From the NCBI GenBank assembly GCA_030386875.1, contig CM059557.1, positions 58,606,514-58,670,513 on the forward strand: DNA of 64,000 nt. The letters run 5' to 3'. The DNA is from Morinoia aosen (lineage: Eukaryota; Arthropoda; Malacostraca; Amphipoda; Talitridae). This document shows positions 16,301-46,300 of the stretch, in pieces. Numbering within the stretch: the first letter of the stretch is position 1; each line of letters begins with the position of its first letter. The notes beneath the pieces were generated by a model. It saw nothing but the letters and a program-made list of their open reading frames with translations, had not been told where the DNA came from and did not search any database. A program made the translations under genes and the position numbers.

Positions 16301-19300
16301 ATTACAGGCCTGTAAGTATGTATTTGTTCTGATAAATTACAATGTGGACTTTATAAAATTTTTTTTTATAAAAATATCACAATTGTTCATTCTAACTTAC
16401 ATAACTTGACCATGCCTGATCACATCTATTCTAACCTATTCCTTCCTGACTTATCCCAAACTAACCTATCATAATGTAACTCATCATTACATAATCCATC
16501 CTAGCTTGACCCATCCTAGCTTGGCCCATCCTAGCTTGGCCCATCCTAGCTTGACCCATCCTAGCTTGACCCATCCTAGCTTGGCCCATCCTAGCTTGAC
16601 CCATCCTAGCTTGACCCATCCTAGCTTGACCCATCCTAGCTTGACCCATCCTAGCTTGGCCCATCCTGGCTTGGCCCATCCTGGCTTGGCCCATCCTGGC
16701 TTGGCCCATCCTGGCTTGGCCCATCCTGGCTTGACCCATCCTGGCTTGACCCATCCTGGCTTGACCCATCCTGGCTTGACCCATCCTGGCTTGACCCATC
16801 CTGGCTTGACCCATCCTGGCTTGACCCATCCTGGCTTGACCCATCCTGGCTTGGCCCATCCTGGCTTGGCCCATCCTGGCTTGACCCATCCTGGCTTGGC
16901 CCATCCTGGCTTGGCCCATCCTGGCTTGGCCCATCCTGGCTTGGCCCATCCTGGCTTGGCCCATCCTGGCTTGGCCCATCCTGGCTTGGCCCATCCTGGC
17001 TTGGCCCATCCTGGCTTGGCCCATCCTGGCTTGGCCCATCCTGGCTTGGCCCATCCTGGCTTGGCCCATCCTGGCTTGGCCCATCCTGGCTTGGCCCATC
17101 CTGGCTTGGCCCATCCTGGCTTGGCCCATCCTGGCTTGGCCCATCCTGGCTTGGCCCATCCTGGCTTGGCCCATCCTGGCTTGGCCCATCCTGGCTTGGC
17201 CCATCCTGGCTTGGCCCATCCTGGCTTGGCCCATCCTGGCTTGGCCCATCCTGGCTTGGCCCATCCTGGCTTGGCCCATCCTGGCTTGGCCCATCCTGGC
17301 TTGGCCCATCCTGGCTTGGCCCATCCTGGCTTGGCTCATCCTGGCTTGGCCCATCCTGGCATGACCTATCCTGGCATGACCCATCCTGGCATGACCCATC
17401 CTGACATGACCCACGCTAGCTCGACTCGCGCTAGCTCGACCCGCGCTAGCTCGACCCGCGCTAGCTCGACCCGCGCTAGCTCGACCCGCGCTAGCTCGAC
17501 CCGCGCTAGCTCGACCCGCGCTAGCTCGACCCGCGCTAGCTCGACCCGCGCTAGCTCGACCCGCGCTAGCTCGACCCGCGCTAGCTCGACCCGCGCTAGA
17601 TCGACCCGCGCTAGCTCGACCCGCGCTAGCTCGACCCGCGCTAGCTCGACCCGCGCTAGCTCGACCCGCGCTAGCTCGACCCGCGCTAGCTCGACCCGCG
17701 CTAGCTCGACCCGCGCTAGCTCGACCCGCGCTAGCTCGACCCGCGCTAGCTCGACCCGCGCTAGCTCGACCCGCGCTAGCTCGACCCGCGCTAGCTCGAC
17801 CCGCGCTAGCTCGACCCGCGCTAGCTCGACCCGCGCTAGCTCGACCCGCGCTAGCTCGACCCGCGCTAGCTCGACCCGCGCTTGCTCGACCCGCGCTAGC
17901 TCGACCCGCGCTAGCTCGACCCGCGCTAGCTCGACCCGCGCTAGCTCGACCCGCGCTAGCTCGACCCGCGCTAGCTCGACCCGCGCTAGCTCGACCCGCG
18001 CTAGCTCGACCCGCGCTAGCTCGACCCGCGCTAGCTCGACCCGCGCTTGCTCGACCCGCGCTAGCTCGACCCGCGCTAGCTCGACCCGCGCTAGCTCGAC
18101 CCGCGCTAGCTCGACCCGCGCTAGCTCGACCCGCGCTAGCTCGACCCGCGCTAGCTCGACCCGCGCTAGCTCGACCCGCGCTAGCTCGACCCGCGCTAGC
18201 TCGACCCGCGCTAGCTCGACCCGCGCTAGCTCGACCCGCGCTAGCTCGACCCGCGCTAGCTCGACCCGCCTGTCTTGAATCTGGTCTATCCTAACCGGTT
18301 TTAACCTGTGTTATCCTGTCACCTCATCTTGACCTACCCTCACTCAACCCACCCTCACTCAACCCACCCTCACTCAACCCACCCCCACTCAACCCACCCC
18401 CACTCAACCCACCCCCACTCAACCCACCCTCACTCAACCCACCCTCACTCAACCCACCCTTCACTGTGCTGCCCTTTATACTGTACCCTATTCTCATCTA
18501 CTCTACTGTACCCTATTCTTGTGTACTCTACTGTACCCTATTCTCATCTACTCTACTGTACCCTATTCTCGTGTACTCTACTGTACCCTATTCTCGTGTA
18601 CTCTACTGTACCCTATTCTTGTGTACTCTACTGTACCCTATTCTTGTGTACTCTACTGTACCCTATTCTCATCTACTCTACTGTACCCTATCCTTACCTA
18701 ACATAATATATTCTAACCAAATTCAGCACTCTCTAACTCGAGCTAATCTGACCTATTCGGACCTAATAAATTCTAAGTAATCCTGGTACAGTGCTTCCTA
18801 ACTTGATGCCACTTATTTTAACCTATCTCAACATAACCAATTTTAACCAAGGAATTAAGTATAAATTCTTATATATAAATAATTTACACAAAAGTACGTA
18901 CAATTTTTTTATTTAAATTATTTCTTTTTATAAACCTATTACGCCCAATTGTTATTTAACTTGAATTATCTTAACCTAACTCATTCTAGCTAGTCCTATT
19001 ACATCCTTACTCAATCTAACCAAACCTTCACTTCCGTACTTACCTAATGACAGATGCATGTGTAGCAACTTGGAAGTCAGTCAGTTTACTGTCCGTCAAT
19101 TGGCAGAAAAATCAAAACTGCCTGAAGCATTGCATTTTTTGTGTTTCGGCTCATTGTGATGCAATTTAGCTCAATATTCTTTACGGATGTTTACTTTTCA
19201 AATTATTGAATTATTGAAGTGTGATGGATGGTCTCATGATAATACAATGGATTTTGGTAACTCCTGCTGTGTCATTTATTATTTTTGCTTTATAATCCAA

Positions 19301-22300
19301 GTCTTCAGCTTTTCAATGCTCTCCCCTCAGGAGATACAACTATTGTATCTATGGGAATTAGCGCTCCCAGGGGAAAAATGTGAGGGCCCGAGGTGAGAGT
19401 TAGGTAGGCCTTCTTTTTGTTGAAATAAAATGTTTTTTGTTATGTTAAGGACCACCTTTTTTCGGTTCACTACTGTCCTGTTTTTCAGCACCTCTGACTT
19501 TCTTCTTCAACATTTATCTTATTTCATGAACTTCTTTCCCATCTTACTGTTTCTATGCCCTTTCTGCATAGATTCCTCATTTTCTTATCTCCATACTAAA
19601 TGGTGCCTTCCTTCTTCCTCTCTTCGATACGCTCTATTTTTGCAGCAGTTAGGGAGGCTTAAACTAACTTATAATCTAATCTAATCTTTTCAATGCTCTT
19701 GTACTTGTTTTGTCTCCTTAAATTTACATCGATCCATGTTTTGGCCAAATAGTTCGGGAATGTTCAAGGTGCTGTTTTTAAAACTATTTGAAGAGGCAAA
19801 ATTACTACCGATGCAGTATACAGTTGTCCCCGGGATCTGGGCAAGATCTTGAATTATTAGTGACTTCCTCGTGCTTAATTATAGAAAAGCATTGATATGT
19901 GAACATAAGTGATACATGCTTATGAACAGTGTTCATTATAAGCATGTGATTATTTTATCTCCATTTGGATGATGAATGTGAAGTGCACTGTTTTGCAAGC
20001 CTATGTAATAATGAAGAGGCAAGCAGAATTATAACATCAATGCAAGGTTTGTGTAAGAATCCATTTTTATAATGGGAAATGTTTATTGCTTATATGCTGT
20101 AATAATTAGAGCAATAAACATCAATTAGAGCATTAATTGATTTCAAAGTATTTATTGTCTACTTGCCCACACTTGGCACTCTGATGTTTTTGCTGCCCAA
20201 AAACACTTCTGGAAGACTTCTTCTGAAATCGTGTTCATCGCTGTATATTCTAGTTCAATTGTATCCCTCCTCTGATCTCATGTGGGATCTTTTAATAATG
20301 AGTTTTTGCAAGGTAACCGACCAATTGCAAGTTTCTATATTTAAAAGATAGAGAGGTTATCAAATGCTACAATCCCATGACTTACCAAGAACCCTGAGAA
20401 TCCTGTGCTGGACCATGTGCGATGAATGATTTAAAACAATGTCATAATGCAACTGTCAGTTTTTTGCTATCCATAGTTTTGTCTTTCACAACTGCATCGC
20501 AAAGTTGGCTGAGAAGTTAACTAAGCTTTCTTGGCTTTCTGTTATTTCAGTGGATATTTGTGATGCACAATTGTATGAATATGGAAATAGATAACATCGT
20601 CCCCTGTTAACCATACGTGCAATGATGACAGCAGTTCACTGTTAGCTGCGACTAACCCACTCAAAGGTGTAGAAAAGTTCAAGTTTAAGAAATAAGCTTT
20701 TTCCTTCTCTGCTCTCCAGGAAGGAAAATGTGAGGTCCTGAGTTGAGAGTTGGGTAGGGTTTCTTTTTTGTTGAAATACGTTTTTTTGCTTTGTTAAGGG
20801 GCATTTTTTCAGACTGTTGTCCTGTTTTCCACCTCCTCTGACTTTTTCTTCCACTTTTAATTGGCATCACAACCTTTCTTCTTAACCTACTGTTTTTATG
20901 TGCAGAGAATCTTGTGCATTGATTCCATGTTTCTGTAACTCCATACTAAATGGTGCTTTCATCCTTCCTCTCTTAGAGCATCTTTGTATGGTCAGGGAGG
21001 CTGAAACTAACATATAAATCTAATCTAATAATTTTTCTCTGTTGTATATTGTAGTAAAAACCTTGGATCAATTCTTCACATTGAAAAATTCATTGTCGGA
21101 TATTTTTCAGGAGGGTTTTATATGGAGCCACAATGCTCTGTAGAAGTGAAAATGATGATTTGGAAAACTGATAGTTTTAGTGTCATGCATGTGTGATATT
21201 TATTTTGGTGCTGCAAAAAACCATTTAATTTTAATTCTAGGTTTGCATCAAGAATGTGCTGAAGAGACGGTTTTGGTAGCAAATGATTAGGAATGCATTC
21301 TAAGCATAGTTTGGCTGCATGGGGAAGAATATTACTCACAAATAACTCAGCGTATTTATTTGCAGTGTGTTTACTAACTTTTTGGAAGTGTACTGTACAA
21401 ATCAACGTACTGTTAAAAAGAGAAAGCATCTGTTTTACATAATCTTCATCTTTGTATGCTGGGAGTGCACCTATAACAGTGTCTTGCACGTCCAATAATT
21501 CTGTGATTCTTACTCTCATCAAAGAAGTTATGCATCCATGTGGTTGGATTAAAAATTTGGACCATCTCTTTCCTATACAAATATTTCCTCATTAAATACA
21601 GTGGAATTTGGAAAGCTAAAAACAGTGCTTTAATGGTAAATGTAGCAAATTTTTCTTGTGAACCTTGTGCTACAGATGAACGCTGCGTCAACATGGAGAG
21701 TCATGACCGGACCACCGCCTTGCTGCTCCTTTGCCAGCAGTGCAGCTCCTCTCCAGATGAGGTATGTTGCTGTCTTCTTTTGTGTGTCACTTTTTTTGGT
21801 ATTTTGTTCTCTTGGCCTGCACATTTTATGGAATTTGTTTTTTACACACAAGGTGTTTTTTGAAGGTTTATTTTGAAGTCTGCATTAGCTTTGACGTAGT
21901 GTTATCCTTGCTATTCATTCTATTTGTGTTGAAATATACGGTGCGTTTGTAACTCAGTTCTTGCAGGGAGATAAAGTATATGGAACCCAACAACGTGTGG
22001 TTGAGGCCATTGCATTGCTCGTGTGCTGACTGTGCCAGTCCCTATGACAACTTGTATTTGCTCTGTGGGATGTGCAGAGCCTATGTGTTATGTGTTGGCT
22101 GTGGGTCTTGTACTAACTACTTCAGGGTTATCTTTTTCAAGCATCTTTTCGAAGGTCGTTTTTTAAATCATTTATTCTTTATTAGCCTCGAGAATTTCAG
22201 GGTATTGCTGATGTATGTTGACATTGCATATCCTCTCTTTTTTTCTTCAAACATAACTCAATTTTCTTTCTACAAAGCAGTTAGCCATATCAAGCCATAG

Positions 22301-25300
22301 GCGTCTATCTATTTCGCCTAAGATGTTTCCTGTTTTGGGTTGGAACTGCGAAATATCTGTCAGAAGATCTGCGCCCTGAGTGGCGTGTAGGCAGACACAA
22401 ATAATGATAGGTAAGCCTCCAAGGTATGCAATGTCACTAGTTAAGAATTCAATGTTGAAAACAGTAGCATGCAAAGCGGTGAGTGACGAGGGTCGGTTAT
22501 CGGTACTGTCTTCTTGTGCAGACTAAGAAGTTAGCGAGCCTCTTGGCTGCTGGTGCTGACCCTAACCGACCAAAGCAGGACCCATTTTCGCTTCCATTAC
22601 TTTGTGGTAAGTTGCCTGATGTTACGTGTTGCCATTATGTTGCCAGAAATATTGTTTGTTGCTATGGAAATATCCAAGCTAGTGTCGAGTGGAGAACATT
22701 TTGTGAATAATAATAAAATGCTAGAAGAACTAAGGAATTGTAGAAAGAAGGATTGTGATCGTCGCTCATCTGGAATTGTTAAATAATAATTTGACCTTTG
22801 ATACGTCTCTCTCTGTAATTGCTAAGTGTGAGGTATCATGTAGATAATTCTTATTGATTTAAGATAAGTATCTATTTGCGGGTCTCGGAGACTCAACTTT
22901 TTATCTAAGCTATAGTTTGTTACAGAACTGATCAAATTGTGGCCTCTCGTTATCATATGCAGTAGGAGCACTGCTCATGAACGTCGGAAATTTAGCGCAA
23001 TATCTCCTATGTTTTTGAAGCGCTGGCAACTATTGTATGTACAACTACTGCTGCTGTCACAGAGCTGATCAACTTGTGGCCTCTCGTGATCATACACAGT
23101 AGGAGTGCTGCCCATGAACGTCAGAAATTCGGCGCGTTCTCCCTTATGTTTTTGAAGCGCTGGTAACCTTTGAATGTACTGCTACACATGAACTTTGGTG
23201 TGAGAGTGTTGTGCGGTCGCAGTGCTGGAGCGCAAGGGGTGGCAGGCCGCCACCATGCTGCTGGAGGCCGGTGCGCACCCCTGGAAGGTGGACTTCGAGC
23301 ACAGCGGATGGGCGCCTATCTACTTCGCCCTAGTAAGAGGTCTCGCCCATTTGGGCTGTGTGTTCCTTACGGTCTTGAGCATTATCGTCTTAGGTGTTGG
23401 CCATTTTGCATCATGGGTCGTTTACGTCTGTGTGTTGTAAATGCCCTATTACACGGGGCAACTATTGCTCCAAAAAGCAGCGACGGATGCCTCTGAGAGC
23501 TACAGACTGCAGTTGCTGGGCGAGTTTAGGTTTCCGCGCTTGTTAAGAAACCTCGAGCAGCTCAGAGCGACGGAGCACGGAAGCAGTGCTCGACTGACTG
23601 TCGTAGAGCAAGGATGGTTGCGACACCGCCTCCCACTGAGCCAACATAAACTTGGTTCGCCATTCAATAGGTAGTCGAAGAATTTAACACTTTCACTGCC
23701 GCAACTAAGTATTAAGTTCAACACCAAACTCAAATTTTAAGTAAATTTTAGTAAACTATTGTGAAAATACCAAACATGAACTGGATCATGCCTTCATTTA
23801 GCTTTAACAAGTTTTTATGAAAATTGAGTTTACGACTACTGGTCGGTCAGCAGCATTATGAAAATTACCTCCGTGTACCACCGGTGGCGCACGTCGCAGT
23901 CAAAGTGTTAATAAATGTCCTATGATATGGAATGCTATCAAGTGTTATATAAGCAATTAAGTATCAATTTAGGCACATAATTAGTTGTAATTGCTGTACA
24001 AAATAAATCGGAATATTACCATTTACCATACATTCCTGATACGTTTCATTTTCAAATGTTATCACTTTTCCCTCATAATTGAATGTTTATCACGTAGTTT
24101 TTATGATAAATAAAATGGGTACATACACACATATACATACATATACCGGGCTTATCCTCCCTATGGGAGGGTAGCTGACAGCAGGCCACAATCGCCACAC
24201 TTAGGCACTAGGAGGCGAGAGGGGCAGCACTGGCCGCACCTGAACTGCCAAGATCAGCAGCAGCCCAGCACAACCACCTTCCACAGTCAGGCCCGACAAC
24301 CATAGCTGGTTTACCCCGACCGCTTCATTGAGTGCAGCCCCTCCCCCCGCACAGGACAGGTCAACCCCATCACATGCGGACAAATATAAAAAAAAATAAA
24401 GTGGGTAGAAATTTAAAATAATGAGCCATAGGTTTATAAGTTTAAACAGTGTAACGGAATATGATGAAACTATCAAAGCAAAAAAAAAATAGAAAAAACA
24501 TCACTACCTGCCACAGAAGTGAGCGGGAAAAGAACATCGACTCTATGAAGTCAGGTAACTTTATGTGCATTCATTTTAATTTTCTATCATAAGTCGCGGG
24601 TACAAAAATAGGCAATATTTATATTCGGCTTTCAATGATCAAACCATTTAATGTTTTTTAGACTTGAACCTAACTATATTAATACAACAAATGAATGTGC
24701 TTAATTAAGTAATTTGAAGTTTATTTAATTTAGTTCTGTGCCTTGTAGAAACACCAATCATTATATTGATATCCCCTCAAGGGGATACAACTATTGTATC
24801 TATGGGAATTAGCGCTCCCAGGGGAAAAATGTGAGGGCCCGAGCTGAGAGTTAGGTAGGCCTTCTTTCTGTTGAAATAGAAGTTTTTTTTTGTTATGTTA
24901 AGGACCACCTTTTTTCGGTTCACTGCTGTCCTGTTTTTCAGCACCTCTCACTTTCTTCTTCAACTTTTATCTTATTTCATGAACTTCTTTCTCATCTTCC
25001 CCTCAGGGGGATACAACTATTGTATCTATGGGAATTGGCGCTCCCAGGGGGACTATGTGAGGGCCTGAGCTAAAGGTTAGGTAGGCTTCCTTTTTGTTGA
25101 AATGAAATAGGTTTTTGTTTTGTTACGGACCATCTTTTTTCGGTTCACTGCTGTCCTGTTTTTCAGCACCTACTACTTTCTTCTTCCACTTTTTTCTTGT
25201 TTCATGAACTTCTTTCCTAGCTTACTGTTTCTGCGCACCTTGTGCATAGATTCCGCGTTCCCTTAACTCCATACTAAATAGTGCCTTCCTCCTTCCTCTC

Positions 25301-28300
25301 TTGGAACATCTTTGTTGTGGTTGAGGGAGGCTAAAAATTTCTTATATAATAATATATTGAATCAATAGACCCTTCAATCCTATCCATATTCAGAAATAAA
25401 CGACAATAAATACTTCAAGGACATTCAAAAGCTTATAACAGGAACTAAGTTTTGTATACGTTCTTAATGCTTTTCAATTAATGGCAAAATGAAGAAGTCA
25501 CATGCCGCAGTCACTGCGAGCAACAACCTCCCTCTGCAATTGGCAACGCCACACTGGTTGCCTCGTGTGATAGCGCACCCTCAAGTTGCGTCATTGCAGT
25601 TGCCATAGGCGAAGTGTAGCCCCGTGTAATAGGGCCTTAAGATGTGATAATGACGTCGTGCTTCTGAATATCGCTAGTTGCTGTTTTTCATCTCTACTAT
25701 TTCTTGGACTATTTTATTGTTACCTGATTTTTTGAATATTCTGTGATTCAGTTGCTCGATCATCGTACGAATCCAACTTGGTATCAGCCATGGTTGAGCC
25801 AGCTTTTTATATTAAAGTTCTTTCAAAGTTGATAGTCTCAAACGGTTCATCGCGTCATTCACATTGAAATTAATTTGCTGATTTATGCATTCTCTATGTT
25901 CTTATATTTGTTGCACTATATAACTAATCTTGGTATTAATTTTTGATTGCCTATTTAGTTATTAAAATTTTATGCTCCATTACATTTACCCATTTACCCA
26001 GTTTTTTACCCATTTTTCAATGATGTCATTGCTTTATTTAAACTTCGTTTGTTGTTTAAGTGTATGGTATTGTATGCTCAAAAAATTAGCTGAAATGCAA
26101 TGAGACAAAAGATTACCAAACGATTGCTTTGATCTACTTTGATGTCGAGCTAGTTGTCTTGGTACCATGTCATTTTCTCTCCAGGAACGCCTGGACATCG
26201 TGCAGCTCATTTTGAAGAAAGGAGGCTGTCAGTCTCGTCTGCTCCACCAGCTCTTTGGCTACATGCTGCCGCCTATATCTAAAGAGAAGATGATGAAGCT
26301 GTACAGGCTTATCCTTCCTTATATTCCGTGAGTTCAGTGCGTGTTGAAATTAACACATTTACTGCAGTGAGTTAAACTGATGTTTGATGTTATAAATGGC
26401 TAACATTAACTGGGTCTATTAAATACCATTGATTTAAAAAAGGTGGTTAGAAGTTTTTGACCGACCCATCGATGGGTTGTTTTGCCGCAGGAAAAACCTA
26501 AGCGCGACCCACCGGCGGGTGACTATACCCGTTGGTGACATGGCGGTCAGCGAGTGACATTCTGCAGAACTTCATGCGCACACCTAGTTTAGCTCTCCTG
26601 ATGAAGCGACAGCTCTGCTATGGATTAATTTGGACATTTTTCAACATTAAAAGTCGTCTCACAAATGTTAATTACACTCTCTGATAACCTGCAGTGTCCG
26701 TTTACTGGAATTTCTGCGCAATTTTTTGTGGGCAATAGAGTGGCGGTTTCTGTATTGAATATTTTTGACTGCTCTCCCACCTACAGAGATGACGTGGACG
26801 TAGAGCTGCTGCTGATGGCCGCTCGAGAGCCGTACGTGGACATCGTGATAGACATGCTGCCCGCCGTCATGCCCTGCTGCAACGCCGTGGTCGGCCGTAG
26901 CAGCTTGCTGCACTTCCTGCGCTACATGTTCCCTACCCTCACACGGCTCGGTCCGCTCGATCGCAGGAGGTGCGCGCCAGTCTAGTGCTCTAGATTGCTG
27001 CTTTTTTTCAGGTTGCATTTTTTGCTTTGCATAATCCATGCAGAATTTCTGGATGAGATACCGTCTTTTGTGGCAAATGTGGTACCTCTTTCTTGTGTTT
27101 GGGTGTTTGGTCTTTCCTTGTGTAATTTGTGGCACTGCTTTGGATCTTTCTAAATAAACTAGGATTTTCCTTTTTGCAGTTGCTACAGGAAATACTCCTC
27201 TGGCTTGTATTGCGTTCTTTTGTTTTATTCTTATTATTTATTACATCATTTATCACATTATTTGATCAAGTTCCATAAAGTTATGTAGGAAGTTGTTGAA
27301 GTAGATTGGAAATATCCAGTAGTAAGTGTGTGTGTGTTAGCATGAGTAGCTCATCTGTCGGATACAGCCATTGTATCTATGGGAATTAGCACTTCGAGGA
27401 GGAAGATGTGAGGTCCCGAGCTAAAGTTTAGGTAAGCTTTTTTTCAAAATAGAATGGGATTTTGTTTTGTTACGGACCATCCTTTTTCGGCTGACTGCTG
27501 TCGTGTTTTTCAGGTCCAGTTACTTTCTTTTTTTATTTTCATCTTGTTTCATAGACTGTAGTTTTTTTCAACTTACTGTTTCTATGCACTTTGTGCATAG
27601 ATCCTGCGGTCCCGTAAGTCCGTACTAAACGTTTTTCTCCTCTTTGGAATGCCTTTGTTGCGGTTATGGAGGGCCAAATTGACTTATCTGATGCCATTAG
27701 AAAGAAGAAGCTCACATTCCTCATGCTTGCATCTTGTCAGCTCAGCTCACGTTCAGGGCGGCCCTTATGTAATTCACTCTTTTTGATAATCGGAGCTTGG
27801 AAACTATGAAGCTTAAAGAGTTTTACATGATGAATGGTTTATGAAATTTAAAATTTATTGAAATGTGGAATCTAATTTATTAACAATCATAATATATTGC
27901 TTTATAAATCGCAAATTTCATCCCTTAAAATTGGGCACCGCACAAAAGAGCAGTGAGCAAGAGTCGTAGAGCTTTGCTCCCGTGTGATGGAGCAATTAAA
28001 ATAATCGTCCAAACGAATTACAGGAACATAGAGATCAGAAAAGTCCTGGTTAGCACAGGATAAAAATTATGTTCTTTAAATTCAAAGAATTTGGACCACA
28101 AAAAACAAACAATGGCAGAATACGAACCGTTTATAGTAATGCTTTTAGCCTATTAATTTAATTAATAAAGCTAATAATTTGGCATTTTAAGGATTGTTGC
28201 TTTTCAGCCTATAACTTCAACAAAGAAACGTTCAACTTCGCTAGGAATATCTCGAGCGTCGCTGCAATGTGTCCTCAAATGAGGTTTGCATTATCCTCCC

Positions 28301-31300
28301 TCCCCATTATCAGCATGAGAATCAATGGCTGTGCTAAGAAAATTTTTTTCACTGCGATTAATTTCACGTGTCGATGTGTCTTGGCTACATAGGTCTCAAG
28401 ATTTAAATGCTCGTGATTTATCCCTCAGGGGATATGTGAAGGGAAGAATTTACATCAACAAACCTGATACCTCGCAGGAGTGAAAAAGCAATATATTTCA
28501 AGTAGTTAACTGTCTGACTCCAGATGTTTTGGGTAAAATTTTGAGCAGTACCCTTAAAAAAGCGAGTGTTTGTACAATAATGGAGGTTATCTTAAAGATA
28601 TCTTCCATTATCAACCTATAAATTAAATTCTGAACTCTATTGCATTGCTTTAAATCTTAAACTCTTCATGTTTCATAGTACTCATGTTTTCAATTTTCAA
28701 TCAGGGTTAGTAACTTCTGCTCCACCTTGCATCTCTCGGTTGTCTTGAAGGTAAAATTTGAAAATGATCAAAATGAGTCGTTCTTACATCAGAAATTTTT
28801 TTTGTTACCGACCAGTACCCAAAAGCTCAGAAATTGATATAGTTTTTTTGAAGGGAAGGGAATGGAAGAAACGTCTTTAGGGAAATGATAGGTGTATCTT
28901 TTGCTTTATCTGTGCACCTTATATTTCCAGGCTTCAAATGAGTTATTTTTCTTACAGCAGGGATGTTTTTGTTGCAGATTTTTGTCTGCATACCTGAGAA
29001 GTTTGAAGAATAACGTGTTCAGTGTGTGCGACTCAGCGACCACCCTCATGCCCCTCGTGTGGACCTGCCACAGGTGTGTGGTGCGCAGCTAGTTACTTCT
29101 ATATGCTTCGTTTGTTTATTACTTCCAGCATATCTGCTCGAAACTGTATAACTTGTTTTGTGCTTAACTTTCCATATGATTTTGTTAAGCTTTATGCCTT
29201 AGTCTACCAACAGTGATGCCTGTAGAAGCACAAAGCCCGTACCCTCCATCAGGGCTTACTGCTTCAAGCCAGTGTGGCAGTGCAACGTAACTCACTAAAG
29301 CAAGAACAAATTGGTCAAGTAACTGACACTCGATATCACAAGTACACTTCGAGAGTGAGGTCTTGATGCAAGCTGTGCTTCCTTACCTTGAGGGATCCTG
29401 CACGTTGTAACGCTTTCATCCAGTTTCTTTACATAATTACCGCTAACTTGTTCAATTTGGAACTAAGTTGTGGTACATATTCTATGAATTAGTACTTTCA
29501 ATACGTACCAGGTATTAATGACATCAATCTACTTACATTGTGTGATGGCATCAATTTACTCTGGTGTGGGTGTCAGGCTATTGTCAAAAATTCCGACTTG
29601 TGCCTATATAATTTAACCGGAGGGAAAATAATTCTCCTCGCATACCTAAGCTCTCGTATCACAGATACTTGAGTAACCTACTTCCATCTCGAATTTCAAA
29701 ATTTCTCAGCTTGAATTTTAATTCGGCTCTTAACTTTTGAAGCCTGTATTACCAGCGCAACAAACTCCTGAGCTTGCCTTCGTCTCGACTCAAATTTCAA
29801 AAGCTTGAAAAACAGCTCAAATCTTCAAACCTTGTAACCAGATCGGACTCCGAAAATTACCGAATAATATTTGCAACTTGGAAACTGTTGAAAAGCCCTC
29901 GCCTTAATAAAATAATCACTCAGCAACTGACTTCTCTCATATCCCTGAAAAATCAATAAGATTCTCCTGAATAAAAGCCTCGGAGCTTACGGCCCTCAGA
30001 ACCCTAAAATAGGGAAACTATTATCGCTGGCTCCCAAGATATGACCAAGACATTGATGTGCACCAGCCAAAAAATTAAATAATCTATAACTGGCACCCAA
30101 CGCGGATTCGCCAAAACAACTATCTAACTTTTGGCGCCCAAGAGGATACAGCAAAACTAAATATACAACAACAATTTGGCGTCCGATCAAGGGACTGCCC
30201 TAACAAATATCCAACAGTGGGGATCTCAATCTACTCTTCTGTGGGGATCTCAATCTACTCTTCTGTGGGGATCTCTATCTACTCTTGTGTGGTGATATCA
30301 ATCTACTTATGTGATATTTCGGTCATTGTTATAACCTTCAGTTCTTATAAAAGAATATGTTCATTTTATCCATTGATTGTGGGATATATGCTGCCCTCAT
30401 TTGATGCATCTTTTGCGGTCATTCAGTTTTAGGAGTTAATCAATCTTACTCTCGATTAGCAAACACCTGAGCTACTGCGTGAGTACACTTTTTGCAAAAG
30501 CTCTACGTTAATGTTACAATAAATCAGTGAAATGCCCCATTCAATATTGGTCTGAAGGCTTCAATCACTTTTCCACACTTAAATATGTACATTATTGTGC
30601 AGAACGATCAAATGCATGCACTCCAGCTTCAAGCGCCTGTAATAAACATTTGGCATGGTATACTATGCCTCAAAGTTGTCTTGACTAAGTTCTCATTAAC
30701 AAATTTTGGAACCTTAGTTTCTGGGTGACTTGGCGTGGGCTTCTCCCACGTCAGGTTGTTTTCCTCTCCTGGATTTAAAAACTTGTGCTGCTTTTCAAAA
30801 GACGTCCTTGAAGCAACATTAACAATCGGTGAGCATGAAGAACTGATGCATCACATCCGCAACTATCATTACTGGAATTCTGTTGTGAGCAGCCTTTTTC
30901 TATTTTTAAATTTTCACCTCAGTTTCTATTTGAAAAAAAATACTTGTTTCCCTTACTGATTATAAAGCCTTTTTATCCCAATAATATTCGATGCGTCTTC
31001 TACCCTCTTTTCTCAAGAGTCCTCTGCCAGTTACAATAAACTTCACGTATAAACGCGCGCAAAAGTCTGCAGTCAACATTGCGAGGTTGCTACACAGGCT
31101 GCCTTTTTTCTTAATTCGTATTCTTCACTGTAAATTTTAACCCGTGTAGAGTTTTGCCATGCAATGAACCTATTGTTCTGACTTAAGCTTGACGTGTTTA
31201 GTTCTCACAGAAGGTATTTCACTCTTGCAGGAACTGTGTGTAGATGTTTAAGATAGAAATTATCTAACAATTGCTTCCCTAATATGTTTCTATTTTTCTG

Positions 31301-34300
31301 CATTTACTGAATTTATCACAATTCTAAACCGTGAGTTTTTTCAAGGGGCAATTCAGAATATATCGTTACATAACCTGTTTGGTCCTGATGGTTTATTCAA
31401 GGATTTGGTGTGAGAATTTTTTTTTCTTTCCAGCGTGGATTCTCTAAAGATTCTATTAGAAGAAGCGGAGCGCGCCGGCCTGCCCGCCACTGGCTGGAGG
31501 ATGGAGCCTGGTGAACTAGCAGAGCTCTCTGAACATTTGGGGGAAAGACCAGCGTGCTCTTACTGCGTGTGAGTTGTGAGGCTGGGTGTCCGCTGTCCTG
31601 CTCTGTGATCTCAACACCTGAGTACATTTAGCACTTTCTATCATCTAAGCGTTCAGCATACAAAATATATGTCGTACTACACCCACTGGCTTATATTATA
31701 TTAAAAGCACGAGTTTAATGTGTTGTTCCCTACATCATTTGTGTTTCTGACCATGGCAGTTTTCTACACAACTTCGAATTATTGTAGTAATGAATTTGTT
31801 GTAATACGCACTTTTTTGTAGAATTTACTCTCTGTTCTTTTGGAAATTTGTAATGAATAGCCTCTCAACTAATGCTCGTAACTTTGTCTCATCTAATGAA
31901 GCACATCTTTTGCTAGGCGATAACGCAAGTTTATTAAAAATTTTAAAGCAAAGAATAAAATGCTAAACATTTTTGGAACGTTTTGGGATAAATCCCATCA
32001 TCAGCTGAAAAACACGCGATATGAAATAACTGTGATTAGTTACAGACACAAACGGTTCATGAGACTATAATAAATTAAATGGAAATGCACATTGGAAAAG
32101 AACTAGACGTCCCATTCAGTGCTGGTCTATTCTTTAAAATATGCCGTGATTCTAAAATGCGTTCGTCACTAAAATTTGACCCCTGCCCTATGAATGACAA
32201 ATTATTATTTGCGATTATTGAATTACTGTTATCTGCGTGAATACGGATTGCAGAATGGATTGGTTGTCCTAGCCCTGATCCTGTGTGGTAAGCCTTGATC
32301 ATGTGTTCAAATCGTGTGTTTTTCAGCTGATGATGAGATTCATCCCGAAACGTTCCAAAAATGTTTAGAATTTTATCCTTCGCTTTTAAATTTTTGTCTC
32401 ATCTAATACTCTGATCCTAGGTGTGCTGGTTATGACTGCAATTGTGTTATGTTAGTTTGAAGCTAGGGCAGCATTTGTCAAAGCGATGTTGATGTGCAAC
32501 CAAGTTCGAGTGAGTGGGATACTGTTTGGTAAACATGCCTAGTTTCAAACCGAATGAGGACCACTTAATGCTTTTCTTGTTGATATGTTCTTTAACGCAT
32601 CTTAGGACGGAAAGCCGTCGTATCCTTGTGGGTTGACAATGTCGTAAGGTAAGAGGCGCACGTGCGTTGATTTAGAGTAAGTAATACCTAGGCATACCAA
32701 TTTAATTCGTTCCGGGACCTACGTCGTATGTCATACTATTTGTATCTAGAATCATTTATTCCCATAGGAATACATGTAAAATCACTTAATTCGTTCCACA
32801 GCCCAAAAACCTACCTTCCTTTTGCTTAATAATCTTTGAGATCGTACGCTTGTTGCGGCCATACTGCTTAGCCAGATCGTCGCTCACACGTACGAAGTTC
32901 TATGATTTCTTGCTTTACTTCAAATGAAAGCATTACCTTTATCCTATTTTCACCACTACTACCACCACTTGCACTAGCCTTCTTGGGACCCATGATGATG
33001 GAATAATGAAAAAATGAATTTATTTCTAGGGAAACGTAATCTACATATAAACAGAATTATCAAGGAGGGTAAAAACATCTTTCAAGAAGTCATCTTTGTT
33101 AAAAAGTAAAGCTTTCGAGTACTACTACACTCATCATCAGTATCTGAAACGGAAAAGAAACATAAATTTTACATCAGGAATTATAAGAGCAACACATGTT
33201 AGTGAACAAAACTTAATTAAGAACTTGAAGAGGAACAGATGAATCAGTTGCGTTTAATGTTGGTTTAATCTGATGAATGAGGATGCTTTCTAATAATCTT
33301 ATATCTTGTCTACTACTGTGCCCTATAATTTCAAAGTTATTCTGATTGATTGGGTGACCATCTAAATGTGCATGATCTCTGATACTACTATGTAAGGTTT
33401 GGTTGGTAGCTCTACCAGTACGTACGGACATGCCCTTATGCTCTGCTATGCGCGTTACTAAGTGGCGAGTGGTCTCTCCACAATATGTAGCATTACACTG
33501 GCTACATGTATATTTATAAACGACGCAACTTTGTAGAGACTTAGGCATCCTATCAGTAAACCGGAAGTTTTCAGCCCGACTTGAGTTTTTGCGTTCTTAT
33601 TTTTGCCGTAACAGTTTCCCGCTCTCTGTCGTAGAAAAAATTTTCCGTGCAACCATTGAATGTAACCGCAAGGATAAGATGCCAAATTATGATGTGCAGA
33701 AAAAAATTTTATATATATCCGTTAACTATATGTCAAATGCATTAAATCGCTATGTTATGAAGGAATTAAAATTACTACTGTCCAAATATTACCCACAGCT
33801 CAATCCAAGAATTATTTTTCGCAATGGCTTCAGTGTTGGTAGCTTCTTCCGGTTTACTGATAGGATGCCTAAGTCTCTACAAAGTTGCGTCGTTTATAAA
33901 TATACATGTAGCCAGTGTAATGCTACATATTGTGGAGAGACCACTCGCCACTTAGTAACGCGCATAGCAGAGCATAAGGGCATGTCCGTACGTACTGGTA
34001 GAGCTACCAACCAAACCTTACATAGTAGTATCAGAGATCATGCACATTTAGATGGTCACCCAATCAATCAGAATAACTTTGAAATTATAGGGCACAGTAG
34101 TAGACAAGATATAAGATTATTAGAAAGCATCCTCATTCATCAGATTAAACCAACATTAAACGCAACTGATTCATCTGTTCCTCTTCAAGTTCTTAATTAA
34201 GTTTTGTTCACTAACATGTGTTGCTCTTATAATTCCTGATGTAAAATTTATGTTTCTTTTCCGTTTCAGATACTGATGATGAGTGTAGTAGTACTCGAAA

Positions 34301-37300
34301 GCTTTACTTTTTAACAAAGATGACTTCTTGAAAGATGTTTTTACCCTCCTTGATAATTCTGTTTATATGAAAAAATGAAAAATAGCACTAATTATTATTA
34401 AGGAAGAGCCGGTCACTAGAGATGTTTACAGAGTAAAGCGCAACTGTGAGCTGACCTCTCGGTCCCGTCGTGAGTGTTGCTGTGCAGAGCGGACTTAACC
34501 ACGAAACTTTGACGTTGTATGTTGGATTTTTCATTGCGTGTAGAGCCAATAATTTGATCAAATTTCCCGTCGTGTGTTGGAAATTTCGTTTGTTAAAGCA
34601 ATCGTACGACGTAGGTTTGACTGTATTGTAAAGTGGGGATTTGGCTTGGAAGAGAAAGATTGTCAGCGTCAACTGAAACAACTCTTGGATGCCTAATTGC
34701 GAGCACTGTTGGACGAAGACGCGCATACACGATGGAAAATGGTTAAGAAGTTAAATTTCGAGTGCCTAACAAAATCTAATCCTATTTATGTCAGGAGAAA
34801 GATCTAGAAGGCAGGAAAACAAATACCTCATCATCTGAGCAACAGAGAAATGGAAAAGCAAAAATCGAGTTTGTGGAGTGTTGGTTTCTGGGCATTAAAA
34901 AAGCTCTCTGTTATCAAATAGCGACTGGAGACAAAAAATGTATCTACTTTGAAAACCTAAAACGCAAAAAGTCGTGAGTTGATTCAGGACAATAATCCAC
35001 ATAGATAGCAAAATCCAATTGCTTTAGAAGAAAGACAACGGTGTACATTTGGTGGAATCACATTGTGTGCCATAGACCATGAGTCGAAACCTAATTGAGC
35101 GACGAATACCGTTTGCTACTGTGAATTGATCAATTTGAACCATGCATTGATGAAAATCGTTTACATGGACTAAAAGACGTGGAAAAATGATTTGGCAGAA
35201 AGACAACCCCTCATGACTCAGCGGTAGACGCCAGAGGTACCAATTTTGCGTGCCTGCGTACCAGTGAGAGGTACCTGCTTCACCTGCCTACTCACCACCA
35301 GACTTTGGCCCTTCGGGTAACTTTTTGTTTTCATTGATGTCTCGAGCTCTTTCTCAGCAACACTTATACAATTACGATAATGTCAAAAAAGAGTTTGCTG
35401 ACTAGACTACCTCAAATTAAGAAAGATTTTCCTATGAGGGCATCTACAATTTGAAGACGGGTAAAATTTATAGCTAGCAACGATGTATGCTTTGACGAAT
35501 TGGTTACCTTTCTTCAAGGTGCTGTTGCTTTTATCAGAAAAGTAAAAAATTATTAAGTGGCAGATCTAATAAGTGCTTTTTTTCCACAGGCCGCTGTTGA
35601 GGGAAGAGAGCGAGAGCTATGACCTGCTACGTGTGACTGCGTACACAATCTCCACTCTGGATTGCTTCAAGTCAAACTTCTTGATGCTGCTGCGGGCCGG
35701 TGTGTGCATTTATTCTTTATCACTCATTACTGATTTTTAAATGAAATTATGAGCGTCTTTTGATTCTATTTTAATATTATATTTTGTAACAGATTTCATA
35801 ACATCTTGAAACAGTAACTTTTATTTCAGACTGAAAAGAAATGCAAATCTTTCATGTACATAAACAATTTATGGTTCTACGGCCGTGTTCACGACATGCA
35901 AAATTATTTAAGGTGAATGATGTAAGAGTAAATATAGAAATAACTTGAAGTAGGTTACGTAGGTCTCAATGTGTGCCTTACTTGACTTACAAACTCACAA
36001 TCTTGCTGCTGTCACCAACTCGGGCACCGAGTCCCCAGGTATGACAGCATCTGCCTTATCATTTCTTATACGACCTTCCTGGTGCTGTTGACTATAAAAA
36101 TAACGAATTTACATATGACACACATGATCTAGCATTTGTCAACGATGGGTCAGTGTGTTGACGCGCTCTTTGTCTGTGTGCAGGGTATGAGCCGACCCAG
36201 CACACGGTAGCAACATACATTGAACACGCGGGGACCGCCCAAAAAGCATCCCTGTTCTCCATGCCTGACTTCAGTCTGCTGTCCGAGATCTCCCGCAACT
36301 GCTGCGCAACTGGCTCCTGCTGGTTCAGGTTCCTAGTTCTTTGCTTTGTTTTGTTCAAGTTAGTGATGTCTATTTCAGTGAGCTGAATAGTTGTTTGTCG
36401 AAGTGTTTGACCTGCATCTCTGCTTTACTGCTAACGTAGGAAATGGGAAAGGAGGGTAGGAGAGGTTATTGAGAAAATCCTGTTACTCAATGAGCTTGTA
36501 TTTCACTCCCTCCCTTCTCAGTGGGAAACAACTATTTTATCTATGGAAGTTAGTACTTTCAGGGGAAAAGTGTGAGATTTCGCGCTGAATGTTTGGTTCG
36601 CCTTGCATTTGCTTGTATGAAATGTTTTTTGTCGGGCATACTGGTCATCTTTTTTTCGGTTTGCTGCTATTCTTTTTTTTAGCACCGATTACTTTCTTTC
36701 ACTTTTATTTTGTTTCTGAAACTTCTTCCAAACTTTCAGTTTCCATGCAAAGGGTGTGAGTGCACATTTTGTGCATAGATTCATTTTTCCCTCAGTTTTA
36801 TTATACTAAATGGTGCTTACTCTTTGAAATACCTTTGTAGTGGTAAAGGAGGCTTAAAATAACAATGTAATCAAGTTAATTCCCTCCATTTAGGTTAAGA
36901 AGGGCAAATGATTGTAATTGCTAATGAAATGCGCTTGTGAAATAGAGGCGATCGATGGCGATATTGTGCTGACGTTTTCAGGTTTGGTTTATTTTCTTCT
37001 TGACTGACCTTTGTCGTCATCGCTAAGACTTAAAGTTGAGGACAGAAATGCGTGCATCGAGCGTTGGTTCATGGGAAAGTTAAGAATGAATTTGGCATCC
37101 GCTTTATGTGGGGTATTAACTTGTAGAGACGGTGTCAGTGACTTTTTGGAGCAGCGACAACATTTATGCGTGGTGCACAGAGTGAGTTACACTCGTGGTA
37201 ACGCGCTCTCTTCTATATTTTAATTCTACTCATTTCTTTATCAGTTCGCACAACCATGAGCTCAATTTCAGGAATGAGGCAGAGAATATACCTAAGTGTC

Positions 37301-40300: not shown

Positions 40301-43300
40301 AGGATGAAGATTGATTGCCTTTTGAAGTTCCTACCACATACATGCGCTCTTGAATTTGCTTGTGTTTTATTTTTGCTTTGACTAATAAGAGTACAGGGTG
40401 ATTATTAAATATGGGTTCTAAAAGAGTCTTTAATAATAATTCCCTCAATTTCGGATGGATTTTATAAAACAAATCATTCATGTAATCCTGAGCAAGAGTT
40501 TCATTTTGATAACATTTGAAAACAGTATTTTTCATGTGCTGCCCCTTTTTCATGTACGAGAAATTGAGAATCTACCCAATTACCCAGCCTGTTCATTAAG
40601 GCGCTGGTGAGATCTTATCATCCGAGTCTTTGGATTTCTACCGTGATGGATGCCTTGAGTTAGTATGGATTTGTAAAATGTTCACGGTAGACTCTTCATT
40701 TTTAAAGAGCTCACCGTGGAGAGCTTACAAATCTATGACAACTCAAGGCTTTAATCGAAGTAGAAATCCAATGAATTGGACAAGATCTCACCAACGTCGT
40801 AATGATTAGCCTAAGCAATCGTGGAAATTCTAGTGTTTCTCAGTGTGGTGTATTGCTACTCCAGGCACGTATTCCTACGCGCGGCCAATCACAGGGCTGC
40901 ACCCGTCAGCGGGTTGCTTGTGTACACATCGTAATTTGTGTTCACGGACGCTTTGGTGTTCCTATGTGTTTATTCTGTTTAGAATTACACATGCGACGTT
41001 TTTTACGTTCTAAGCTGCTCCGTTTGAGTGGCAGGAGGTATTTTGTGGGATCTACTTCCTGACGTATGGAGCGTCGATTGGTGTGCCGGCCTTGGCATTA
41101 TTGTGTTCGCTGCTGCCGAGAGTGGTAGTGCGTGCTTGAGCTTCCGGTTGCGCTCTTGAGTATCCTTGCGAGATACTGGTGTTGTGTTCTTTTCCTTGTG
41201 CTGAGACACAAGCAGGTAGGACCTGTAGGCGTGTTGTGTGCCTGTGTGTCTGAGTGTGTTCAGACTCACCACACTAGCTTGGAGCTAGTGTGTGCTTCCG
41301 TTTCTGCCGTGAAGTGTGCTCGTTTCACGGCAGCGTGTGTTCACACTGGGTGTGCCCTCTGACACACGAGCTCAGGTGTGTGTCTGGCGTCGGCTGTAGG
41401 GGAGGTTCGGAGGCCGACCCGAGCTCTGGGAGCTCGGCTTTGAGATCTTGGGTCTCGGGATTTGCACATCCCACAACACTCAGGATTGCATATATGCTAT
41501 TTTTTTATAAAACAATCCGATATCAAGGGAGTTATTAAAGACTCTTTTAGGACCAATATTTAAAAATCCCCTTGTATATTTAACACGTTAGTTGCGATGG
41601 GTTAAACTGAAGTTCAATATTCAACTTAAATTTAAAATCAAAAGATATAAGCAAATTTGTAAATATCAAACGTTAACTGGGCCTGTTAAATACCATTAAT
41701 TTAGAAAGGTTGTTAGAATTTTTCAAAACGACCCATCGATGGGTCGTTTCGCAGCAAGAAAAACCTAACTACGACCCACCGGTGGGTCGTACCGCAATGA
41801 ATGTGTTAAGTCATTCCCCATCTAAATTTAATGTGCTAGATAGATTAGCAACAAAAAGCTTCTTATCACTGGTTTCCCGCGAGTTCATTTACAAAAATAG
41901 ATGGTGTTGGAACGCGAGTATGTGCTGTTTGTATGTTCTTTAATTGATGTATATTGCGTTGCAGGCAACCGTTCATGATAGACAGCTGCAGGAAGTTGGT
42001 GATGTGCCGTGACGAGTCCAGAAGCCACTCTCCGAGCGTCCTGGCCTTCTTGTACTTGGGGGTCGACATCCGTGACGTCACCTCTTGGTGAGTTGTGCTG
42101 TGGGTGTTTCGCTCTGTGTGTTGTGTTTGTTGGTGAGTTGTGCTGTGGGTGTTCTGTCTGTTCGTGAGTTTTGCTGTGGGTGTTGTCACTTGGTGGGTTG
42201 TGCTGTGGGTGTTGTGTCTGTTCGTGAGTTTTGCTGTGGGTGTTGTCACTTGGTGAGTTGTTGTGGGTGTTGTGTCACTTGGTGAGTTGTGCTGTGGGTG
42301 TTGTGTCTGTTCGTGAGTTTTGCTGTGGGTGTTGGTGAGTTGTGCTGTGGGTGTTGTGTCTGTTCGTGAGTTTTGCTGTGGGTGTTGTCACTTGGTGAGT
42401 TGTGCTGTGGGTGTTGTGTCTGTTCGTGAGTTTTGCTGTGGGTGTTGTCACTTGGTGAGTTGTTGTGGGTGTTGTGTCACTTGGTGAGTTGTGCTGTGGG
42501 TGTTGTGTCAGTTGGTGAGTTGTGCTGTGTGTGTTGTGTCGCTTGGTGAGTTGTGCTGTGTGTGTTGTGTCACTTGGGGAGTTGTGCTGTGTGTGTGTTG
42601 TCACTTGGTGAGTTGTGCTGTGTGTGTTGTGTCACTTGGTGAGTTGTGCTGTGAGTGTTGTGTCACTTGGTGAGTTGTGCTGTGTGTGTTGTGTCACTTG
42701 GTGAGTTGTGCTGTGTGTGTTGTGTCACTTGGTGAGTTGTGCTGTGTGTGTTGTGTCACTTGGTGAGTTGTGCTGTGTGTGTTGTGTCACTTGGTGAGTT
42801 GTGCTGTGTCTATTGTGTCACTTGGGGAGTTGTGCTGTGTGTGTGTTGTCACTTGGTGAGTTGTGCTGTGTGTGTTGTGTCACTTGGTGAGTTGTGCTGT
42901 GAGTGTTGTGTCACTTGGTGAGTTGTGCTGTGTGTGTTGTGTCACTTGGTGAGTTGTGCTGTGTCTATTGTGTCACTTGGTGAGTTGTGCTCTGTGTGTT
43001 GTGTCACTTGGTGAGTTGTGCTGTGTTTGTTTTGTCACTTGGTGAGTTGTGCTGTAGGTGTTGTGTCACTTGGTGAGTTGTGCTGTGTGTGTTGTCACTT
43101 GGTGAGTTGTGCCGTGTGTGTTGTCACTTGGTGAGTTGTGCTGTGTGTGTTGTGTCACTTGGTGAGTTGTGCTGTGTGTGTTGTGTCACTTGGTGAGTTG
43201 TGCTGTGTGTGTTGTGTCACTTGGTGAGTTGTGCTGTGTGTGTTGTGTCACTTGGTGAGTTGTGCTGTGTATTTTGTCACTTGGTGAGGTGTAGAGTTGT

Positions 43301-46300
43301 TGTTGCACTAGCAGCACTATTACCACCAGTTAGTTGGACGTCTCTCAGTAATAAAGAAAAACATGCCAGGCTCTTCCCATGTGTGGCTGAGGGTCATGTG
43401 TTTGGCTGTCAGTTTTGCGTGACCTAAAGTTTAAAAATCTTGTCAAAAATCCGCCTTAATATCTGATTTAAACCAATCCATCAGCTAAGCTGTAAAATGA
43501 CGTGTTTCAAATGCTAATAATATCGATGTGAGATCAATAACCACCCTCAGTGGTTTTGAATTGAATTGGTTCATTACTTGGAAGGGTTTTCATGAAGACA
43601 TATTTCTTAATAATTCAGCTGCGGGTCTGTAAAATCTCTCAAATGATATAATAACTTGTGTTTGAATAACCCCCTGTTCCAGGCTGTGCACCAAAGTAGA
43701 GCATGGCGCCCTGGGGCGAGACATGGTCCAGGTACTGAACTTGTTCGACCCGTCCTGCACCGCGTCCGTCCTGGGCCTCGCCGACCGTCTTCCTGAGCGA
43801 CCGAAGTGGCGGCGTGACTTGCAGTGTGAGTGTTGGGTGTGTTGTGTGGTGTGGTATGGTGGGGAGTTTTGGGTGTGCTGTGGTATGGTGGGGAGTTCTG
43901 GGTGTGCTGTGGTGTGGTGGGGAGTGCTGAGTGTGCTGTGGTGTTGGGTGTGCTGTGTGTGTTATGGTGTGCTTTGATGTGGTGGGGAGTGCTGGGTGTA
44001 CTGTGGCGAGGCAGGGAGTGCTGGGTGTACTGTGGCGAGGCAGGGAGTGCTGGGTGTACTGTGGCGAGGCAGGGAGTGCTGGGTGTACTGTGGTGAGGCA
44101 GGGAGTGCTGGGTGTACTGTGGTGAGGCAGGGAGTGCTGGGTGTACTGTGGCGAGGCAGGGAGTGCTGGGTGTACTGTGGTGAGGCAGGGAGTGCTGGGT
44201 GTACTGTGGTGAGGCAGGGAGTGCTGGGTGTACTGTGGCGAAGCAGGGAGTGCTGGGTGTACTGTGGTGAGGCAGGAAGTGCTGGGTGTACTGTGGCGAG
44301 GCAGGGAGTGCTGGGTGTACTGTGGTGAGGCAGGGAGTGCTGGGTGTACTGTGGTGAGGCAGGGAGTGCTGGGTGTACTGTGGTGAGGCAGGGAGTGCTG
44401 GGTGTACTGTGGTGAGGCAGGGAGGAGTGCTGGCATTTGGTATGTAGTGATGTACTCAGTGAAATTAGGAGTGAGAGCGCCTGAGAGCGATGAAGTGGAT
44501 GTACAAAAGAATACCGACTCTCGTGCAAAATATGCTTTCCACAAGATTTTGAAGCGTGGTCTCTAACAGCCAAACTAAATGATGCTATAACCAATTTGAT
44601 ATTACGCGCAATATGAGTAAATACAGTAATACCTCCGTCATTGCTGTGTTGCGTTCCAGAAACTTGGAGCAATGACGGAAGCAACGCAATAACAAAAACA
44701 TTCCGAGAAAGTGGTAATTTGCGGGTAACTAAGCTATTTACGTGCGGTTCTGGGGTAGGGTTTCTAAATTAGTTCTTATGAAGCTATGTTATGGTCCTGG
44801 AGGTGAAAAACTCGTTTGATATTTTGCAGTTATATCAAATTATGACAAACTAACAAGAATTAACATATTGAACGTTTTTATGTTATCACTGCTGTAAACA
44901 GTGAAATTTTAATAATAACTAATTTATTCATCCTTGTAGTAACTCAACAATGCGTCAATTGATTGGTGGAATGATGGAAGTTTCTTTGCATCCACTTCTA
45001 CTGATGATGCCTTCCTCCCGATTTTTTCAGCCAATTCCAGAAATTCTGCTAAATCCTTCTTCCTTTCATTTGCTACAACTACTTCGTTAGGTAAATCTGC
45101 AGCAAGAATTTCTGTAACACCGCCTTCACTGAAATCATTGTGTGTAGCTACAAATTCATCTACTGAAAGTTTCTGTTCGTGACTGCTTAGGAATTCATTA
45201 ATATGATCTGATGTTAGTTCCGCAAAACCAGCCTCTGTTGCAAGCTCCTTAAAGGCTTCGATGGGCTCTGAATTGTTTGAGTGACAGAGACGGGAAAATG
45301 TTTTGCACTCTGTTCAATTTTAGTTAATAATTTGATAATAAATCTTAGTATTGATGCAGGGATCCTCATAACTCTAGATACCTCCATACTATTCATGCCT
45401 TCATGATGTTTTTTCAACACTTTCAATTTTGTTTTTGTGCCTGTCAGTTTCCTCTTATTTGGGACTTCCGAGTTTGCCTCCAGAACTCGTGTTGATTTCT
45501 TTCGCTTCATTTCGAGGGCAAGAAACCACAAGCTGATAGAAAATTGTACAACCAGTGCGTTGGCCGAAGAGGTGCTGCTTGCTCGGTCATATGGAGCTGT
45601 CTGGCAACTCCATTCTCTGAGCAATAACAAAAGCGCATTCTCAAAAACGAAAGAGCAATGACACAATCTTGCAATAAAGAAAGGCGCAAAGAAGAAAGTA
45701 TTACTGTAATGGTTTCTAAGCTGTAATTTTTTCATTTGCTTGAACTGCAAAAGCTAATTTACCGCGGTAATTTGATCATGTGCCTTGCGTTGCTGCATGC
45801 TGCTGTTGCTTGAGAGCTGCTCTGCTCCAGCCTGCCCAGATCATCGCCTAGTGACGTTGCGGTGTAGCGAGGCGCTGGCGAACTGCTGTGACAATGTTGA
45901 AGGATTCATTAATGAATGTTTATTAATACTCTAGTAAGAATTGTAGCTTTATTTTGTTCAGGTGAAATGCCCAAAGAAAATTTTTTTAGATGATGAATCT
46001 GCCTGCGCAATTCAGCTCGTATTTCCTTGGAATGTATGTTTAATGCTTAATTTTTTTGAAATAAATTAATTGCAAATCATATAAATGAAGAACTCATAAA
46101 AAAAATAACCTTCGTTGCTTCACCAAATGAACCTTTTATTTGCAGTGCCAAGGCCAAGGTGCATTTGAAATGCGTATGTATCTGTCATCTCTTAATGCAG
46201 CACCGATGTTTGTGCATCCTTAAATATCGCTTAAATTCTTTAGAAACTAATCCTGGCTGCATACACTACGCAACAGTTCTGAGCGCAGGTGTTGCGTGAC

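Follow-up and report, generated by a model that had tools for sequence, protein, structure and literature searches.

A minisatellite built on a 5' splice site in a SOCS-box gene of the amphipod Morinoia aosen, and tandem arrays at the intron starts of its kinase exons

The window, by which we mean the whole stretch of 64,000 nucleotides analysed here, contains one clear gene on the plus strand, whose 12 coding exons (E1–E12) join into a single open frame with a SOCS box at the C-terminus of the product. Exons were placed by the combination of acceptor, donor and reading frame, with every join keeping the frame open; E10, E11 and E12 of this model are exons 12, 13 and 14 of the original prediction, which had drawn attention to a tandem array in the intron after E10. 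The features on which the following account rests are (a slash marks the splice junction):

21677-21761, 22522-22606, 23223-23332, 26185-26327, 26787-26969, 28978-29073, 31434-31568, 35590-35699 and 36184-36328, plus strand: E1–E9, the upstream coding exons, in one open frame; the 5' boundary of E1 and the start codon are provisional
41965..42087, plus strand: E10, 123 nt, with acceptor AG at 41963-41964 and in-frame joins to E9 and E11; it ends in GTCACCTCTTG, the exonic portion of the repeat seed
42085..42093, plus strand: the true 5' splice site, TTG/GTGAGT, at the junction that preserves the 12-exon frame; dG -9.2, matrix score 8.35
42088..43292, plus strand: array 1, 39 donor-like units past the true donor, delimited by TRF, unit parsing and genome matches of the unit
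43683..43825, plus strand: E11, 143 nt, placed by frame continuity
43826..44424, plus strand: array 2, about 19 units, mostly of 29 bp, delimited by TRF, unit parsing and donor scores
46723..46940, plus strand: E12, the last exon, with the SOCS box and the stop codon

The SOCS-box assignment is real: the Pfam model SOCS_box (PF07525) matches residues 449-489 of the joined protein with 27.3 bits against a cut-off of 23.5, and ligase activity may be predicted for the product. Residues 28-102 are ankyrin-like, ankyrin repeats being a feature of the ASB subfamily of SOCS-box proteins, and are matched by engineered chains including DARPins (best E 3.8e-7), with Pfam Ank_4 at 14.5 bits falling under its cut-off of 22.7. 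Outside this locus the genome contains 17 other places that match the SOCS-box exon at 36-55% identity, on contigs C6, C14, C15, C16, C17, C19 and C24 (13 with E < 1e-4, four with E 0.009-0.16); exons of the E12 type apparently form a multigene family, and none of these matches represents a second copy of the array 1 locus. Elsewhere in the window, about 2.2 kb upstream of the gene (16496-18691) consists of 15-bp and 25-bp tandem arrays through which long open frames run; an Rfam SNORD36 match lies on the minus strand at 28390-28465, with a score of 32.9 bits just above the gathering score of 30 and an E-value of 0.22; and an inverted pair of open frames at 33213-34200, presumably Penelope-like, shares a common protein stretch resembling the endonuclease end of a retroelement.

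Array 1 was resolved by TRF as 39.0 copies of period 31 at 88% matches (42111-43292), and parsing anchored on the donor gave the true site at 42088 followed by 39 donor-like sites, the last at 43284. The spacings between these are mostly of 31 bp (28 cases) or 29 bp (nine), with one of 45 at the very start and one of 22. As many as 30 units carry TTG/GTGAGT exactly, the rest being TTC/GTGAGT (five), TTG/GGGAGT (two), TTG/GTGGGT (one) and TTG/GTGAGG (one), and GTGAGT as such is kept in 35 of the 39. The junction from -4 to +21 is identical to an interior unit at 25 of 25 bases, a likeness equalled by 0 of 2000 and 0 of 1000 dinucleotide-preserving shuffles, and the end of the exon, GTCACCTCTTG, stands 3 nt apart from the corresponding part of the unit, GTCACTTG. 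In the 1.99-Gb genome the unit has 25 matches at up to two mismatches, all of them in the window, against none for the reversed control. Thus, the original prediction of a roughly 38-copy minisatellite seeded by the exon end and its donor, most of whose ~31-base units retain the donor, is borne out, at 39 units. The order of unit variants reveals block duplications (BDE twice, JKLK twice) along with an exact 152-nt self-match at a shift of 248, which is the pattern expected from minisatellite turnover. Among the other intron starts of the gene only those after E4 (3/500 shuffles) and E7 (17/500) bear some likeness to this unit. A search for G-quadruplex patterns returned none, and recursive splicing was set aside as a candidate, with AG/GT occurring just twice in the array (43056 and 43287).

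The strength of the decoys was gauged by a U1-duplex energy and by a 5' splice site weight matrix. Both scores place 30 of the 39 decoys level with the true donor and none above it; sites scoring that high number 13 in the 23,987 bp of the rest of the gene, i.e., 0.66 per 1.2 kb. The claim that the spliceosome faces "equal or better" donors past the true one should therefore read "equal", since no decoy outscores it. Similarly, the donor is better called good than near-perfect, because seven contiguous positions of TTG/GTGAGT fit the U1 consensus, while those at -3 and -2 depart from it. What would follow from the use of any decoy had been rightly foreseen: the frame through the true donor reads ACC TCT TG/G TGA, with a stop straight after a tryptophan (residue 400 of the 519 in the model, numbering from its first methionine), ahead of the exon coding for the SOCS box. 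A stop codon with exon junctions downstream exposes a message to nonsense-mediated decay, and, since this stop would stand at the E10/E11 position ahead of the 143-nt E11 and a further junction, transcripts using a decoy would probably decay sooner than yield a stable truncated protein.

A second donor-anchored array, which the original prediction lacked, occupies the start of the next intron, after E11. In 17 of its 19 units GGGAGT stands in the place of GTGAGT, and those decoys are therefore dead; nine units carry GTG/GTGAGG, which scores 7.66 against 6.59 for the true E11 donor. The homology of array 2 to its own junction is weak, since 27/2000 and 42/1000 shuffles score as high. All 15 genome-wide matches of its unit at up to two mismatches lie in the window. 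Derivation of array 2 from array 1 was considered and rejected, as the unit-to-unit alignment is no better than that of shuffles (189/500 reach it).

The wider occurrence of such arrays was surveyed among kinase exons. A kinase family search of the genome gave 135 matches, of which 80 partial, exon-like ones were chosen from the list before any sequence was seen, and 60 of these were taken with 400 bp of flank on each side. Four were dropped for want of a trusted donor (L080, L102, L114 and L119), and a further eight were removed because they nearly duplicate or are related to others in the set (seven with 99.1-100% identity; L085 with 95.0% to L089), leaving 48 exons. Donors were chosen by hand and are the top-scoring candidate save at L088, L092 and L122, none of which is among the positives. 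With arrays defined by minima of three copies, period 10 and score 70, an array begins no more than 60 bp from 8 of the 48 donors (L086, L089, L100, L104, L107, L111, L124 and L129), against three starts over the other ~340 bp (p=2.6e-5). The excess holds at a looser threshold (9 versus 6, p=7.7e-5) and at a stricter one (6 versus 2, p=2.3e-4), and also in counts that dispense with the choice of donor: 8 of 11 array starts are at most 80 bp from the end of the match among 52 exons (p=2.4e-4) and 10 of 15 among all 60 (p=1.1e-4). Clustering at acceptors is weaker than at donors, with 2 of 3 arrays ending within 60 bp (p=0.06; looser threshold 5 of 11, p=0.016; stricter 2 of 2, p=0.02), and array bases amount to 2305 of 20,800 downstream of the kinase exons versus 630 of 20,800 upstream. 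Thus, on the evidence of this one gene family, it seems unusually common in this genome for minisatellites to start where introns do, and the kinase exons suggest that about one donor in six has an adjacent array. The motif of the donor is not itself over-represented, since three GGTGAGT within short distances give 35,311 matches genome-wide versus 36,473 for the reversed control, numbers that point instead to a genome rich in GT-rich minisatellites. Arrays at or near the donor were noticed afterwards at L058 and L063 too and stand outside the test count; at L058 (C1:25351911-25352267, minus strand) the donor side bears about 24 copies of a 38-mer followed by about 32 of a 19-mer, and the other side about 28 copies of a 28-mer.

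Copying of the junction itself was assessed at 11 donor-adjacent arrays besides array 1. It is clear in four (L085, 1/1000 shuffles; L089, L111 and L129, 0/1000 each), weak in one, array 2 at the E11 donor (42/1000), and was not found at L086, L100, L104, L107, L124 and L088, where the arrays begin 10-54 bp inside the intron; the class of donor-adjacent arrays is therefore a mixed one. The exon end and the donor are both part of the repeat unit in L111, L129 and the related pair L085/L089, which together account for three of the eight survey positives. The exon of L111, which has a 99.3% identical duplicate (L112), encodes WSLGCIFAEM, that of L129 encodes ADWWSFGVLL, and the intron of L129 also holds a longer degenerate copy of the exon with a stop. 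Because these peptides are conserved kinase motifs, exon sequence was in all likelihood copied into the intron at L111 and L129, and not the reverse. Turnover at a boundary array, a different one from array 1, is shown by L078 and L079, which are 99.1% identical and stand two repeat units apart in copy number at an acceptor-side array.

A parallel to these structures is provided by the mirages described in amphioxus, where minisatellite-like, length-unstable tandem duplications cross exon-intron boundaries, many of them with intact splice signals (PMC3087553, PMC3902484). The genes concerned are Adh3, the globins BflGb6/BflGb9 and troponin C, with similar duplications in PGBD5, and splicing is seemingly undisturbed where the signals are repeated (PMC3087553, PMC3902484). 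Array 1 is a mirage in the anatomical sense: as in amphioxus, its unit spans the exon-intron boundary, as the identity at the junction attests, with the donor signals intact, and it comes from the local junction and not from a dispersed repeat, the units of both arrays occurring in the window only. It differs from the amphioxus cases in that 39 and about 19 units follow two neighbouring donors in a single gene, with 30 of the 39 keeping the donor exactly, and in that about one-sixth of the donors in this genome have an adjacent array, going by the kinase survey. A minisatellite in the human gene 6-16/IFI6 (1995) reportedly, by the title of the study, supplies several splice donors in one transcript. 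There, presumably, the use of interior donors keeps the frame open, unlike here, where TGG TGA follows the true junction for every decoy and the decoys are only candidate donors. Also distinct is CeRep25B of Caenorhabditis elegans, an intronic minisatellite near alternative exons that is associated with splicing (PMC4039745): it is a repeat family that recurs at numerous genes and is based on regulatory motifs, in contrast to the local-donor copies of array 1. Within the open-licence literature, as far as its accessible portions go, boundary minisatellites were found for amphioxus only, with human 6-16 added by title, and the portions seen of papers on earthworm metallothionein and on Daphnia tandem repeats mention no donor-anchored arrays.

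In light of this, array 1 is probably best understood as a mirage, that is, a locus-specific and passive minisatellite that is an extreme member of a class apparently frequent at intron starts here, with the first donor kept in use. We infer the direction of copying at this array: a tandem duplication of the segment spanning the 3' end of E10 and its donor would have seeded it, and it would then have grown inside the intron as single units and multi-unit blocks were duplicated. The spliceosome would keep to the first donor through exon definition across the 123-nt exon and through that site being the first transcribed, and the occasional use of a decoy would meet the stop at the true junction, with the message probably removed by decay. 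We favour a passive array with its first donor preferred because such decay is expected, because splicing is described as undisturbed in amphioxus and because decoys equal to the donor are few elsewhere. The kind of structure is already known, and any novelty would lie in how frequent arrays are at donors here and in the number of intact decoys in array 1. The locus places 31 donors with the same nine bases within 1.2 kb and amounts to a natural experiment in the spliceosome's choice of the first among equals.

A more far-reaching reading, which we regard as possible though doubtful, is that 5' splice sites act in this genome as hot spots for the birth of minisatellites, where a junction-tied process in transcription or splicing—e.g., an R-loop, or a polymerase paused at a U1-bound nascent site—would copy exon ends into introns again and again, so that about one-sixth of introns start with an array and array 1 came to hold dozens of live decoys that splicing must ignore. 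Should the frequency at donors hold genome-wide, what has been a curiosity of a few amphioxus genes would prove to be a mutational process widespread at splice boundaries, one that bears on the evolution of introns as well as on gene annotation and assembly.

It had also been proposed that the copy number of the array tunes the ratio of ligase-competent to truncated product. This would make array 1 a splice switch, with copy number setting the use of interior donors and hence the ratio of full-length protein to protein without the SOCS box. The equality of 30 decoys with the true donor, and the stop that every decoy would bring in before the SOCS-box exon, agree with it, as do the intron of about 400 nt that the last decoy would leave in place of 1595 and the decoys retained by a second gene (L111, below). 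Against it, transcripts from decoys are expected substrates of decay by the general rule given above; the amphioxus mirages are described as normally spliced; array 2 has lost the GT at the matching place in most of its units; and nine other donor arrays hold only 0-4 decoys as good as the true donor in their first 400 nt. In eight of these nine, decoys near the strength of the true donor are few; the ninth, L111, has nine at 8.4-9.1 versus 10.0 for its true donor, so that a second gene retains live decoys and array 1 is extreme, yet not the sole case. That common donor-anchored arrays should have few strong decoys fits tolerance over a dedicated switch, and the tuning claim is unsupported and in our judgement very unlikely to be true.

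Less likely still, array 1 might act as a platform for U1, with dozens of unspliced sites blocking premature cleavage and polyadenylation (telescripting) or retaining the transcript in the nucleus. Telescripting is known from human, mouse and Drosophila (PMC5499120), and both the retention of GTGAGT by 35 units and an AATAAA at 43350, ~58 bp past the array, would suit such a role. A single AATAAA is, however, no more than chance may yield; the intron with array 2 is longer (2897 nt) and has three AATAAA, yet array 2 has mostly lost GTGAGT, with nine units keeping GTG/GTGAGG; and four of the nine other donor arrays are without any site above 4.1 in 400 nt. There is equally little to be said for a common GT-rich minisatellite that came to abut the exon by chance, or for an assembly error: the genome is indeed rich in such arrays, but the exact 25-nt identity at the junction, the confinement of the unit to this locus, the heterogeneous variants and block structure of the units, and the over-abundance of arrays starting at donors in a separate set of exons, the kinases, all go against both. 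The least probable reading takes array 1 as a record of recent intron creation by AG/GT duplication, a model put forward for the amphioxus globins (PMC3087553); for the array 2 intron, matches of E12 begin at residue 94 in 16 of 17 genome places and at residue 90 in one, which suggests that this intron position is old, though with moderate force, since the start also coincides with the conserved domain and four of the 17 matches have E > 0.005. In preference to all of these we retain the passive minisatellite with its first donor in use.

The genome searches brought up certain features of the assembly as well. The two contig ends inspected carry no telomere-like array in 2 kb each. A DEAD-box search returned 52 matches, mostly near-whole domains in long open frames, and 39 of these, with open frames of 249-1161 residues, fall within 55.2-72.6 Mb of contig C27, where three kinase matches likewise stand in open frames of 420-597 residues; this segment has the appearance of another genome, from an intron-poor and perhaps fungal eukaryote, that was scaffolded in with the rest. 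Seven pairs of kinase matches are 99.1-100% identical over ~1 kb aligned (e.g., C6:47.14/62.15, C17:70.0/72.1 and C1:37.10/37.45 Mb), and others, such as the pair at C2:33.43/37.47 Mb, have equal scores; recent duplications or unmerged haplotypes would explain such near-identical pairs.
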